This document shows positions 4,797 through 51,309 of a DNA stretch of 64,000 bases, piece by piece. Below the pieces are notes generated by a model. The model made no database searches. It worked only from the letters and a program-made list of their open reading frames with translations, and was not told the origin of the DNA. The position numbers and the translations under genes are program-made. Source of the stretch: Bacteroidota bacterium (GTDB lineage: Bacteria > Bacteroidota > Bacteroidia > B-17B0 > Aurantibacillaceae); NCBI GenBank assembly GCA_003153315.1, contig PLYA01000033.1, positions 1 through 64,000 on the forward strand. Direction: 5' to 3'. Position 1 is the first letter of the stretch, and each line of letters begins with the position of its first letter.

Positions 4797-4979
4797 TTGT
4801 TTTTCATATCTCCCATCTGTATAAGTATTAAAGGAACAACTATTAAGTATGAGGAAACTTCTTGCTTTTTTCATGCTGACAATTATCATCTTAATGTCTG
4901 ATGCCAATCAGTTACCACTATAATTCAGCTACCTACTTTTGAAAAAATTAAAACTGCAATAAATTTAAAATTTAAGCGT

Positions 4980-14014: not shown

Positions 14015-14067
14015 CTGATATGTGTATCTCATCTTTTTAAATGGTTGAAATAAATCACGCATTATTT

Positions 14068-14110
14068 TGATTTCAATCATTGAGAAAAAATAATGCCTGA
14101 TATTACTTTG
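14068..14110 (+). promoter_or_regulatory. Crp/Fnr-type box TGATttcaATCA (14068-14079) plus -7-like TTACTTTG (14103-14110)
   Basis: 33-bp centre spacing; upstream of BON gene. Confidence 0.6.
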
Positions 14111-17798: not shown

Positions 17799-17857
17799 TG
17801 TGGAAGAATTGTTTGCGCCTTATGTTTGGGCTATTTGTTTTTGTATTTTTTTCAATA

Positions 17858-17886
17858 AAAAAGTCACCCGTTATTGGTGACTTTTT
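17858..17886. terminator. Hairpin AAAAAGTCACC...GGTGACTTTTT
   Basis: 11-bp stem with T-run. Confidence 0.75.
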
Positions 17887-17994
17887 CTAACCGTATCCCA
17901 CCGGTATTTATAAATACGGATGTCGGTTTGTGGTATCTTTAAAAATCGTTCTCTATCAATTACTATTTTTCCTTTTTATGTTTTAGGAGTAAGG

Positions 17995-18092
17995 GTCAGC
18001 CTTACGGGGCTGACTTTATATGCCTATCTTACTTTTTTATAAACCTTACGGGGTTTATTTAGTTTTTTATAATTCAGAGACCTTACGGGGTC
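17995..18092. repeat. Three hairpins with identical loop TTACGG and different stems
   Basis: GTCAGCC-TTACGG-GGCTGAC (17995-18014), ATAAACC-TTACGG-GGTTTAT (18039-18058), GACC-TTACGG-GGTC (18079-18092). Confidence 0.8.
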
Positions 18093-18184
18093 AACTTCAT
18101 TAAATTAGAATTCTATTTGAACTCAACGATACAAACATACAGGCAGAAACTAAAAACAGGTATGACTGCTATCAGCTTTTGAGT

Positions 18185-18226
18185 TGATTAATATCATGGA
18201 TATAGAAAAAAGAAGAATGATTTTTG
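18185..18226 (+). promoter_or_regulatory. Crp/Fnr-type box TGATtaatATCA (18185-18196) with -7-like GATTTTTG (18219-18226)
   Basis: Palindrome upstream of ribonucleotide reductase; centre spacing about 32 bp. Confidence 0.5.
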
Positions 18227-18256: not shown

Positions 18257-19996
18257 ATGAACCCGCTACTTTCTGATAATGCCCATACGGTGCTCAACAG
18301 TCGTTATCTGCTTAAAAATGAAGATGGAGTTATAGTAGAAAGCCCTGCCGAGCTTTTCAAACGTGTGGCAAACCATATTGCCAAAGCCGAACTTACATTT
18401 GGTAACGCAGCCGATGCAAAAGCATGGGAGGAAAAATTTTATACACTTATGTGCAAACTGAAATTTATGCCTAACTCTCCTACCCTTATGAATGCAGGTA
18501 TGCCGTTGGGGCAACTAAGCGCCTGTTTTGTATTGCCAGTTGAAGATAGTATAGAATCTATTTTTACTACCCTTAAAAATACCGCAATCATTCAGCAAAG
18601 CGGTGGTGGAACTGGATTTAATTTTTCTGCCCTTCGGCCTGAGGGAGATTTTATTTCTTCCAGTTCAGGTCATGCTTCGGGTCCGGTTTCTTTTATAAAA
18701 ATATTTGATGCCGCTACCCAACATATTAAGCAGGGAGGTAAAAGGCGCGGTGCCAATATGGGTATTATAAATATTGATCATCCGGATATAGAAGAATTTA
18801 TTTCGGTAAAACGGGAAGAAGGTGTGCTTTCTAATTTTAATATCTCAGTTGGCATATATGATACTTTTATGCTGGCGGTAGAGCAGGACCTAAACTGGCA
18901 ATTAAAGCACCCGGGCACCGGAAAGGTTATGAAAGAAATAAAGGCACGTATATTATGGAACACCATAGTAGAAAATGCCTGGAGCAGCGGAGACCCCGGT
19001 TTGGTATTTTTAGATACCGTTAATGAAAGCAATCCTACACCTGTGGTTGGCGCCATTAATTGTACAAACCCCTGCGGCGAAGTTCCTTTGCTTGCTTATG
19101 AGGCTTGTAATTTGGGCTCTATCAATGTTTCTAAATTCATTCTATCTAACAGCAAACAAATTGACTGGAAGAATTTGGAAGAAACCATTCATTATTCCAT
19201 CCGCTTTTTAGATAATGTAATTGAAATGAACAATTACATTATTCCCGAAATAAAAGCCATGGTTAGCGGTAACCGAAAGATTGGTTTGGGCATTATGGGT
19301 TGGGCAGAATTGCTTATAAAAATGCATATTCCGTATGATTCGGAAGAAGCCATACAATTGGCGGAACAGCTGATGAAATTTATAAATGAAAAAAGTAAAG
19401 CAGTTTCGGTTGAACTGGCTAAACAGCGTGGTGTTTTTAAGAACTGGAAAAAAAGTATTTATTACCCGCAAACATCTATCCGCAATGCCACACGCACAAG
19501 CATTGCTCCTACAGGCACCATTTCTATCATTGCCGGAACAAGTTCGTCTATTGAACCTTTGTTTGCTTTGGCTTTTCACAGAGAAAATGTATTGAATAAT
19601 GAAACACTGGATGATATTAATCCGCTGTTCGTTGAATATCTAAAAGAAAACAAGCTATATGCTGAAGCAATCATTCAGCAGGTTAAAAAAACAGGTACAC
19701 TTGCAGAAACTAATTTATCTGCCGAAGTAAAAAGTTTATTTAAAACATCGCTTGAAATAGAACCGCAATGGCATATACGCCATCAGGTAGCTTTTCAAAA
19801 ATATACGGATAATGCTGTTTCAAAAACAATCAACATGCCGGCTGAAGCAACGATAAAGGATATAAATAACGCCTATATGTATGCTTGGAAACAAAAGGCT
19901 AAAGGGGTAACCATTTTTCGTTATGGTTCAAAACAAAAACAAGTACTAAAAAGCGGCATTGATAACCAAGATGCCTGTCATGTTTGTATAAGCTGA
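18257..19996 (+). CDS. nrdJ: Adenosylcobalamin-dependent (class II) ribonucleotide reductase, short form
   Basis: NSPTLMNAGMPLGQLSACFVLPVEDSIESIF, QSGGGTGFNFSALRP, INCTNPCGEVPLLAYEACNLGSINVSKF; C-terminal CHVC. Confidence 0.9.
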   Translation: MNPLLSDNAHTVLNSRYLLKNEDGVIVESPAELFKRVANHIAKAELTFGNAADAKAWEEKFYTLMCKLKFMPNSPTLMNAGMPLGQLSACFVLPVEDSIESIFTTLKNTAIIQQSGGGTGFNFSALRPEGDFISSSSGHASGPVSFIKIFDAATQHIKQGGKRRGANMGIINIDHPDIEEFISVKREEGVLSNFNISVGIYDTFMLAVEQDLNWQLKHPGTGKVMKEIKARILWNTIVENAWSSGDPGLVFLDTVNESNPTPVVGAINCTNPCGEVPLLAYEACNLGSINVSKFILSNSKQIDWKNLEETIHYSIRFLDNVIEMNNYIIPEIKAMVSGNRKIGLGIMGWAELLIKMHIPYDSEEAIQLAEQLMKFINEKSKAVSVELAKQRGVFKNWKKSIYYPQTSIRNATRTSIAPTGTISIIAGTSSSIEPLFALAFHRENVLNNETLDDINPLFVEYLKENKLYAEAIIQQVKKTGTLAETNLSAEVKSLFKTSLEIEPQWHIRHQVAFQKYTDNAVSKTINMPAEATIKDINNAYMYAWKQKAKGVTIFRYGSKQKQVLKSGIDNQDACHVCIS

Positions 19997-20065: not shown

Positions 20066-22195
20066 ATGAATAATTTAAAACAAATTTTAGAACCAAAATC
20101 AGTTGCTGTAATTGGCGCGTCGGAAATAAAAGGAACCATTGGCTATGCTGTTTTTTTTAATATACTCACATCAGATTTTCAAGGGGTTGTCTATCCGGTA
20201 AACCCAAAGTATAACAATATTATGAGCGTAAGATCCTACAATAATGTAGGTGAAATTCCGGATGAGATTGATCTCGCTATTTTATGTATTCCTAAAAATG
20301 CCGTTAAAGAAGTTATAGAACAATGCGCCTTAAAAAATATAAAAGGTGCGGTGGTAATAACCGCCGGCTTTAAGGAAACAGGAAATGAAGGAAAAAAGCT
20401 GGAAGATGAAATTGCAGCTATTGCAAGAGAGCATAATATTTTATTAATAGGCCCTAATTGCCTTGGTTTAGTTAATACTGCTGTAAACTGTAGCCTTAAT
20501 GCAACCTTTGCTATTGGCATGCCTCATAAGGGCAAAGTGGCATTGGTATCTCAAAGCGGGGCAGTTGGAATTGCAGCGCTTGATTATGCACAACAGCATG
20601 AACTCGGAATTTCAAAATTTATATCCATTGGCAACAAAGCTGTGGTAGATGAAAGTGATGTGCTGGAATATTTAATTGATGATAACGATACCACCGTGAT
20701 TACCATGTATGTTGAAGATATTACCAGGCCAACCCGTTTCTTTGAGATGGCAAAAAAGGCAAACGCAAAACAAAAACCTATCATTGTAATAAAAACGGGT
20801 AGGTCGATACGTGGTGCACAAGCCATTCATTCTCATACGGGGGCACTTTCAAGTTCTGATACAGCCTATGATTCGCTTTTTGCGCAATGTGGTGTAATCA
20901 GGGTAACGGAACTTTCAGAATTATTTGAGTATGCTAAAGGTTTTACCTGCCGGGTAGAACCTAAAGGAAAGCGTGTAGTTATTCTTACCAATGCCGGCGG
21001 AATGGGGATTATTACAACAGATGCTATAGAAAGAAATCATTTGGAAATGACCTCTTTTGAAGAAAGCATATCAAAAGAATTAAAAAGAGTTTTACCTGCT
21101 GAAGCTAATATACATAATCCTGTAGATGTTATTGGAGATGCGGATGCTAAGCGTATTGCAGATACATTAGCCATTATAGTAAAAGATAAAAATATGGACG
21201 CCTTAATTGTTTCTATTGTACCTACTATTAAAACAAATATGGATGAGATAGCTTTATCACTTTGTAAAATAGCAAAAGAAAATCCTCAAATACCTATACT
21301 CTCTAATCTTATGTCGTTGGAACCTGAACCTGCTTTTGAGAAAGTATTGGAACAGGCTAATATTCCCAACTTTAGTTTCCCCGAAATTAATGTCCGCACT
21401 CTGTCGGTTATGATTAACTATTATGAAAGCATAAAACAAACAGAAGAATTGCCGGCCAGATATCCTGTAAATGAAGAACAGGTAAAAGCTGTATTACAGT
21501 TGGTTAGGAAAGAAAAAAGAATTCGTTTGTCAGAAGCAGAGGGATATAAAATTCTTGAAGCTTATGGATTTAAAGCCCTGGATTACCGTGTGGCTAAAAA
21601 CATGGAAGATATTCTTGCTGCAACTAGCCAGATAGGCTACCCCATTGTGATGAAAATACTCTCTTCTGATATTTTACATAAAGTAGATGTGGGAGGAGTA
21701 CAGATAAATCTGAAAAACGAAGATGATGTAAAAAAAGCTTTTACAACCATTAGTGATAACATTAAAAAACTTAAAACGGGAACAAACATACAAGGCTTCC
21801 TGATACAGAAATTCTTTACGGGTAGCGGTATTGAAGTTATTATTGGGGCCAATGCCATTAAAGGTTTTGGTTCATTGATTATGTTTGGTCTTGGAGGAAC
21901 ATTGGTTGAATTATTTAAAGATGTTTCTTTTCGTTTAACTCCTTTAACAAAACAGGATGCTTTAAATATGATAATGGAGACAAAAGGCTATCAGATATTA
22001 AAGGGCTATAGGGGACACGCTCCTTATAATATGGAAGGTATTGTAGATTGTCTTTTAAGGTTGTCGCAACTTGTAACAGACTTCCCTGAAATTCAGGAAC
22101 TGGATATGAACCCGGTAAAAGTACTTGAAGATGGCACTAGCGTTGTTGTTATGGATGCAAAAGCAATTCTTTCTGGTGAACAACAAATTGTTTAG
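20066..22195 (+). CDS. ADP-forming acetate--CoA ligase / acyl-CoA synthetase family (fused alpha-beta)
   Basis: PKSVAVIGASEIKGTIGYAVF, ATP-grasp GYPIVMKILSSDILHKVDVGGV. Confidence 0.92.
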   Translation: MNNLKQILEPKSVAVIGASEIKGTIGYAVFFNILTSDFQGVVYPVNPKYNNIMSVRSYNNVGEIPDEIDLAILCIPKNAVKEVIEQCALKNIKGAVVITAGFKETGNEGKKLEDEIAAIAREHNILLIGPNCLGLVNTAVNCSLNATFAIGMPHKGKVALVSQSGAVGIAALDYAQQHELGISKFISIGNKAVVDESDVLEYLIDDNDTTVITMYVEDITRPTRFFEMAKKANAKQKPIIVIKTGRSIRGAQAIHSHTGALSSSDTAYDSLFAQCGVIRVTELSELFEYAKGFTCRVEPKGKRVVILTNAGGMGIITTDAIERNHLEMTSFEESISKELKRVLPAEANIHNPVDVIGDADAKRIADTLAIIVKDKNMDALIVSIVPTIKTNMDEIALSLCKIAKENPQIPILSNLMSLEPEPAFEKVLEQANIPNFSFPEINVRTLSVMINYYESIKQTEELPARYPVNEEQVKAVLQLVRKEKRIRLSEAEGYKILEAYGFKALDYRVAKNMEDILAATSQIGYPIVMKILSSDILHKVDVGGVQINLKNEDDVKKAFTTISDNIKKLKTGTNIQGFLIQKFFTGSGIEVIIGANAIKGFGSLIMFGLGGTLVELFKDVSFRLTPLTKQDALNMIMETKGYQILKGYRGHAPYNMEGIVDCLLRLSQLVTDFPEIQELDMNPVKVLEDGTSVVVMDAKAILSGEQQIV

Positions 22196-51188: not shown

Positions 51189-51309
51189 GATTTCCTTACG
51201 GAATTTGCGGGGTAAAGGGAAAGGGTTTGCTATCGGGTACTTTTCATGTTAAGATAATACAAACGTATTGGAAGGAATTTATATCTTTGGAGACTTAACA
51301 ATAAATGTT

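Follow-up and report, generated by a model that had tools for sequence, protein, structure and literature searches.

CsrB and RsmZ are RNAs that titrate CsrA, and FnrS is a short, FNR-activated enterobacterial small RNA that depends on Hfq and acts by base pairing. To our knowledge, the textbook RNA regulators are largely missing from Bacteroidota. Within this phylum, FopS and GibS of Bacteroides are multi-copy paralogous small RNAs with TAnnTTTG-type promoters and an RRM protein as partner or antagonist, and in FopS a single-stranded 5' seed leads into one terminator hairpin (PMC11697453). A GUCCY-hairpin motif of Bacteroidetes and Proteobacteria, marked "RNA ?" and without an Rfam entry, is listed in Weinberg 2010 (PMC2864571).

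Here we analysed a 64,000-nt stretch of DNA from a bacterium of the family Aurantibacillaceae (the window), in which three hairpins with one common loop lie close to nrdJ. Sequence, fold and alignment together provide good support for a predicted stand-alone gene for a small non-coding RNA, running from about 18127 to 17857 on the minus strand, to which these hairpins belong. Like CsrB/CsrC and RsmX/Y/Z, the predicted RNA stands alone, repeats one invariant loop on differing stems from a few to many times, ends in an intrinsic terminator, appears to be controlled by a signalling regulator and has several paralogues per genome. Unlike in CsrB and RsmZ, the loops read CCGUAA, CUGUAA or CUCCAA with no GGA (ANGGA) motif, FNR-type boxes are found where those RNAs have GacA/UvrY sites, a search of this genome and 40 relatives gave no CsrA, and no mRNA target sites were found in 0.89 Mb. 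With FopS and GibS the RNA shares the phylum, membership of a paralogous small RNA family, a TAnnTTTG-type promoter and the occurrence of an RRM protein in the genome, but it differs in having serial loop hairpins, as judged by fold and alignment, and in matching no Rfam model. The predicted FNR-type control of a small RNA resembles that of FnrS, whereas the repeated-loop architecture does not, and Hfq was not found in this genome. Flavo-1 RNA (RF01705) is also a hairpin-type RNA motif of Bacteroidota; even at relaxed thresholds its model did not match the hairpin RNAs, and no Rfam family matched the RNA at gathering thresholds or at E <= 10.

The commonest unselected form of the hairpin, GUC-CYGUAA-GAC, contains GUCCY, and the single hairpin may therefore have been seen before as the GUCCY-hairpin of Weinberg 2010, the two being compared by name only (PMC2864571). 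In the literature searched, we did not find the loop sequence described, nor the arrays, the RNA genes, their promoter geometry or their strand.

A predicted small RNA gene divergent from nrdJ

The preliminary description reported three hairpins with a TTACGG loop on differing but complementary stems, and the sequence was exactly as claimed at all three positions (loop hairpins 1 to 3 in Table 1). The window contains three copies of the motif CCTTACGGGG in a stretch of 91 bp, compared with 0.04 expected from dinucleotide shuffles, and three copies were reached in none of 100 such shuffles. Because terminators follow the arrays on the strand that reads CCGUAA, and the window copy has both its promoter and its terminator on that strand, we assigned the RNA to the minus strand of the window, with the loop CCGUAA (generally C-Y-GUAA). 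Of the earlier reading, the conserved loop and the location of the hairpins outside the nrdJ leader stood, whereas the loop as UUACGG did not, the RNA being the opposite strand.

The inferred RNA start lies 12 nt past the first T of the -7 element, whose predicted promoter function comes from its match to the known Bacteroidota consensus, and the RNA end was placed at the U-run of the terminator. The window RNA folded with a z-score of -3.8, and none of 200 dinucleotide shuffles was equally good; the other scores obtained for RNA genes were -3.7 and -2.2. The loops were unpaired in the predicted fold, and the longest open reading frame of the window copy had 23 codons. The divergent neighbour nrdJ lies outside the RNA and has the box region in common with it.

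Table 1. Features of the predicted RNA gene in the window and its copies elsewhere in the genome (contig:position).
Feature	Position	Strand	Basis
Predicted non-coding RNA gene, ~270 nt	17857..18127	-	fold, homologue alignment, no long ORF
Distal FNR-type box TGATATTAATCA (+ strand: TTGATTAATATCAT)	18185..18196	-	spacing kept in paralogues and relatives
Proximal FNR-type box TGATAGCAGTCA	18163..18174	-	spacing kept in 4/4 paralogues and L236
Predicted Bacteroidota-type -7 promoter element TATGTTTG (TAnnTTTG)	18132..18139	-	sequence
5' hairpin GAGTTC-AAATA-GAATTC	18108..18124	-	sequence and fold; also in L240
Loop hairpin 1 GACC-CCGUAA-GGUC	18079..18092	-	sequence and fold
Loop hairpin 2 AUAAACC-CCGUAA-GGUUUAU	18039..18058	-	sequence and fold
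Loop hairpin 3 GUCAGCC-CCGUAA-GGCUGAC	17995..18014	-	sequence and fold
3' structured domain (CCGACATC..TATTTATA..GGGATACGG)	17891..17921	-	fold; conserved in L240
Intrinsic terminator AGTCACC-AATAACG-GGTGACT then TTTTT (AGTCACC-AATAACG-GGTGACTTTTTT)	17857..17882	-	sequence and fold
nrdJ (adenosylcobalamin-dependent ribonucleotide reductase)	18257..19996	+	TIGR02504 NrdJ_Z, 713 bits
Full RNA paralogue	C29:31605-31924	-	
Full RNA paralogue	C46:36235-36553	+	
Full RNA paralogue	C64:7313-7594	-	
Partial 3' copies	C58:35710, C64:5815, C105:16968		

A search of the whole genome (4.14 Mb) for CCTTACGGGG, as suggested in the preliminary description, returned 13 matches, whereas the reversed control gave 9; ten of the CCTTACGGGG matches fell into four clusters. 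These clusters are four paralogous RNA genes, namely the window copy and three full-length paralogues; the genome also carries three 3' fragments. Similarity between the C29 and C46 copies begins at the upstream boxes and ends at the terminator, indicating that the conserved unit is the gene from promoter to terminator, and the TAnnTTTG element is present in all four paralogues. The C64 paralogue (L016:7313-8052) adjoins a single-domain response regulator and is near a PAS histidine kinase.

Rarity elsewhere in the genome and a lack of conservation in relatives had been named beforehand as arguments against the motif. Judged by hairpins with stems of >=5 bp in 0.89 Mb of the genome, it is indeed rare in the literal sense, yet this does not refute it, because relatives have retained both the RNA genes and the motif, which recurred there with complementary arms. 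A suggested link to a further copy near 51192 was left without support. The 8-mer CCTTACGG at 51194-51201 sits in AT-rich atttCCTTACGGaattt, no array, promoter or terminator was seen around it, and it is most likely a chance occurrence, since this 8-mer is expected 0.8 times per window.

In another genus of the family (locus L240, genome G049), 336 nt could be aligned with the window RNA at 61% identity, with an alignment score of 126 compared with a maximum of 47 in 200 shuffles. The 5' hairpin is found there as AAATTC/GAATTC, the stem of hairpin 1 is GGUC/GGCC where the window has GACC/GGUC and still forms a hairpin, hairpin 3 differs in sequence and is a hairpin in both, and the terminator has a different stem in the same place. 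BLASTN with the C29 RNA in 150 relatives recovered no true homologue, so that the loop pattern succeeds where a search by sequence homology does not.

The loop module across Bacteroidota

Scanning 84,980 genomes for two CCCCGTAAGG within 18-48 nt gave at least 116 stretches; among the matches listed, 63 stretches were from Bacteroidota or close to them and 53 from other phyla. Stems of >=4 bp were present at 182 of 225 distinct Bacteroidota sites, with 86 distinct 5' arms among the 182, and at 19 of 112 sites in other phyla, in each case among the matches listed. Since sites were picked by their ten core bases only, pairs 3-6 provide an unbiased test of stem formation. At the 225 Bacteroidota sites among the matches listed, these pairs were Watson-Crick at frequencies of 0.86, 0.81, 0.77 and 0.61, compared with 0.44, 0.53, 0.32 and 0.27 in the shuffled control (z 12-15), and the 112 sites listed from other phyla gave no pairing signal comparable to that of Bacteroidota. 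By this measure, the earlier proposal of a conserved RNA loop on covarying stems was borne out and holds across the phylum. The double pattern was found in 24 of 395 genomes of the class (63 matches) versus 2 genomes (6 matches) for the reversed control, and in 10 of 87 genomes of the family (38 matches) versus none for the control. Arrays in Rhodothermales (L143, L128) extend the range beyond Bacteroidia.

Among the matches listed, unselected hexaloop hairpins near arrays carried CCGTAA in 35 of 222 cases and CTGTAA in 15, the next best loop reaching 8, while far from arrays CCGTAA accounted for 3 of 617 hexaloop hairpins. CUCCAA is a second recurrent loop, seen in the paralogues and also in L173. 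A GNRA-tetraloop register (GUAA closed by CC/GG) with stems of >=6 bp was tried and rejected; it returned mostly Streptomyces and other non-Bacteroidota loci.

The arrays consist of 2 to 13 hairpins, the window copy having just three CCGUAA hairpins. In L173 and L174, a TAGATTTG/TAGTTTTG promoter is followed by 12-13 hairpins and a terminator, while in L077 and its relatives there are two hairpins, of which the second is the terminator. In one lineage (L122, L183, L185), a second type of hairpin, GGAGC-CAACCC-GCUCC, alternates with the arrays, which are located there between panB and a conserved 187-aa gene. The terminator itself carries the loop in 12 arrays, as would suit a purely structural role in which the hexaloop is a favoured, stable or nuclease-resistant cap that binds no ligand. 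We consider such a role quite unlikely, because the surroundings of most array hairpins are A-rich linkers that lack U-runs, the closing pair varies freely (GUC-GAC, AUC-GAU, ACC-GGU, GCU-AGC) while the loop does not, and the nearest-neighbour model, which is ignorant of special hexaloops, assigns the loop no special stability.

In 24 of 67 cases a strict terminator came after the array when the CCGTAA strand was read, compared with 4 cases for the opposite strand, and discordant cases were divided 20:0 (p = 2e-6). A strand test based on G.U versus A.C pairs gave 26:21 for strict stems and 27:12 for loose stems, the latter with some non-Bacteroidota loci included, and the strand assignment makes no use of it. 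The terminator bias also bears on whether the hairpins could be a dispersed DNA repeat or mobile element (REP/RAYT, MITE or attC-like) that is recognised as DNA, a possibility raised by the four full and three partial copies that this genome carries. This seems very improbable to us: unlike for REP/RAYT, no Y1 (IS200-type) transposase (PF01797) was found in the genome, and the stems are free rather than copied, as the many distinct arms among the matches listed attest. In addition, the borders of the copies are the boxes and the terminator, and neither a target duplication nor a terminal inverted repeat was seen by eye.

Among 55 arrays classifiable on both sides, a sample that includes some non-Bacteroidota loci, the upstream gene was divergent in 27, no neighbour was co-directional in 19, and co-directional genes flanked the array on both sides in another 19. 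The last group would fit a leader or 3' UTR element of neighbouring mRNAs in place of a separate RNA. That the arrays are such elements is nevertheless highly doubtful, given that the remaining arrays are not so flanked, that the window copy has its own promoter and terminator with the divergent nrdJ upstream, and that neighbours are unrelated between lineages. Neighbour function was for the same reason discarded as a clue (ribBA, FAH, TamB, truA, panB, thyA and YchF were among the neighbours).

FNR-type boxes and promoter geometry

Upstream of the RNA gene are two boxes of the form TGAT-N4-ATCA. Measured from the first T of the -7 element, their centres are exactly 51 and 29 bp upstream in all four copies, a spacing that is constant in the paralogues despite their sequence divergence. 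The same spacing was found in another genus of the family, in a five-hairpin array with boxes at -51 and -29 from TATATTTG (L236, genome G067) and in a two-hairpin RNA with the distal box at -51 (L079, genome G083). FNR-type boxes were clear only in the Aurantibacillaceae and in one orthologous group of Chitinophagaceae arrays. If the first T is at -12, as implied by the Bacteroidota consensus, the boxes would be centred near -63 and -41, which would put two helical turns between them and match the usual position for an activator; the proximal centre at about -41 would thus agree with a TTGAT-N4-ATCAA-like site near -41.5.

The genome encodes three CRP/FNR-type proteins, of which L233 and L234 have the recognition helix E-x-x-S-R, as in FNR, and L232 has E-x-x-I-R. 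CRP/FNR proteins of this genome are encoded at C57:68484, C105:9518 and C16:23269, the last two loci carrying response regulators fused to CRP/FNR domains. Tandem boxes occur as well upstream of genes for a CcoI-like P-type ATPase, a cytochrome c, an alcohol dehydrogenase, an old-yellow-enzyme-like protein and BON and CBS proteins, and upstream of nrdJ. This gene set fits an oxygen-limitation regulon, with both the regulator and the signal predicted from the boxes and the genes that follow them.

Further box regions were seen in the window and elsewhere. At 14046-14079, tandem FNR-type boxes lie between a CBS-domain gene (13852, minus strand) and a BON-domain gene (14141, plus strand); taken with nrdJ (18257) and, at 20066-22195, an acetate-CoA-ligase-like ADP-forming protein, these look like an oxygen-limitation gene cluster. 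Tandem boxes at 4877-4910 precede a coiled-coil lipoprotein gene, relatives of which follow such boxes at C98:10509 and stand beside the FNR-box hairpin RNA in L079. At C99:23228 (L031:1466-1560) and C31:101851 (L032:1500-1672), the box region (TGATATTAATCAA..AAACTGATA) alone is in common with the RNA genes; at C31:101851, what may be a short RNA with its terminator comes after it.

A possible sponge RNA

Identical loops on unrelated stems point to a ligand that would bind the loop, and from the invariant loop, the free stem and the variable copy number we propose a sponge or scaffold for a loop-binding protein. According to this model, an FNR/CRP-type regulator would switch on the RNA gene, together with nrdJ, at low oxygen, each hairpin would offer its hexaloop to a putative RNA-binding protein, and the RNA, acting as a sponge or scaffold, would titrate that protein much as CsrB/RsmZ do with CsrA. 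An FNR-controlled, CsrB-like sponge or scaffold of this kind has, in our estimate, about an even chance of being correct. More tentatively, and at somewhat below even chance, Bacteroidota may possess a Csr-like post-transcriptional system of their own, in which a predicted protein recognises C-Y-G-U-A-A hexaloops and is titrated by arrays of 2-13 per RNA, with FNR-type control here during oxygen limitation.

The putative protein partner is not CsrA (PF02599), which was found in none of 41 genomes, comprising this genome and the 40 relatives, whereas control genomes were positive. One RRM protein was found in this genome and is a possible candidate partner. The invariant-loop module would be a concrete bait for finding the missing RNA-binding protein, and also a marker with which to annotate regulatory RNAs where sequence homology alone finds nothing.

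The main rival to the sponge reading is base pairing through the loops, in which the C-rich loops would be seeds for mRNAs or for the loops of other RNAs and the copies would raise avidity or dose. Paralogous families of base-pairing small RNAs are known in Bacteroidota (FopS/GibS, PMC11697453), the loops are unpaired in the fold, and the CUCCAA loop resembles an anti-Shine-Dalgarno sequence. We nonetheless judge this mechanism unlikely, though deserving of serious attention: the CCGUAA, CUGUAA and CUCCAA variants would each require a target of their own, a seed has no need of as many as 13 identical 6-nt loops per RNA, six base pairs are short, and Hfq is among the proteins not found in the genome.

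Three observations speak against the sponge reading. The window copy has only three of the hairpins, clear FNR-type boxes are confined to some lineages, and 0.89 Mb of the genome contained no isolated target hairpins with a CCGTAA loop on a stem of >=5 bp. With one exception, hairpins of this type in that sequence lay inside the four RNA genes, and hence no class of mRNA sites such as CsrA has was seen. In the same 0.89 Mb, two other kinds of hexaloop hairpin were strongly over-represented, GATTAC/GTAATC (12, stems >=5 bp) and CTTGAC (5, stems >=7 bp), apparently from other repeats.
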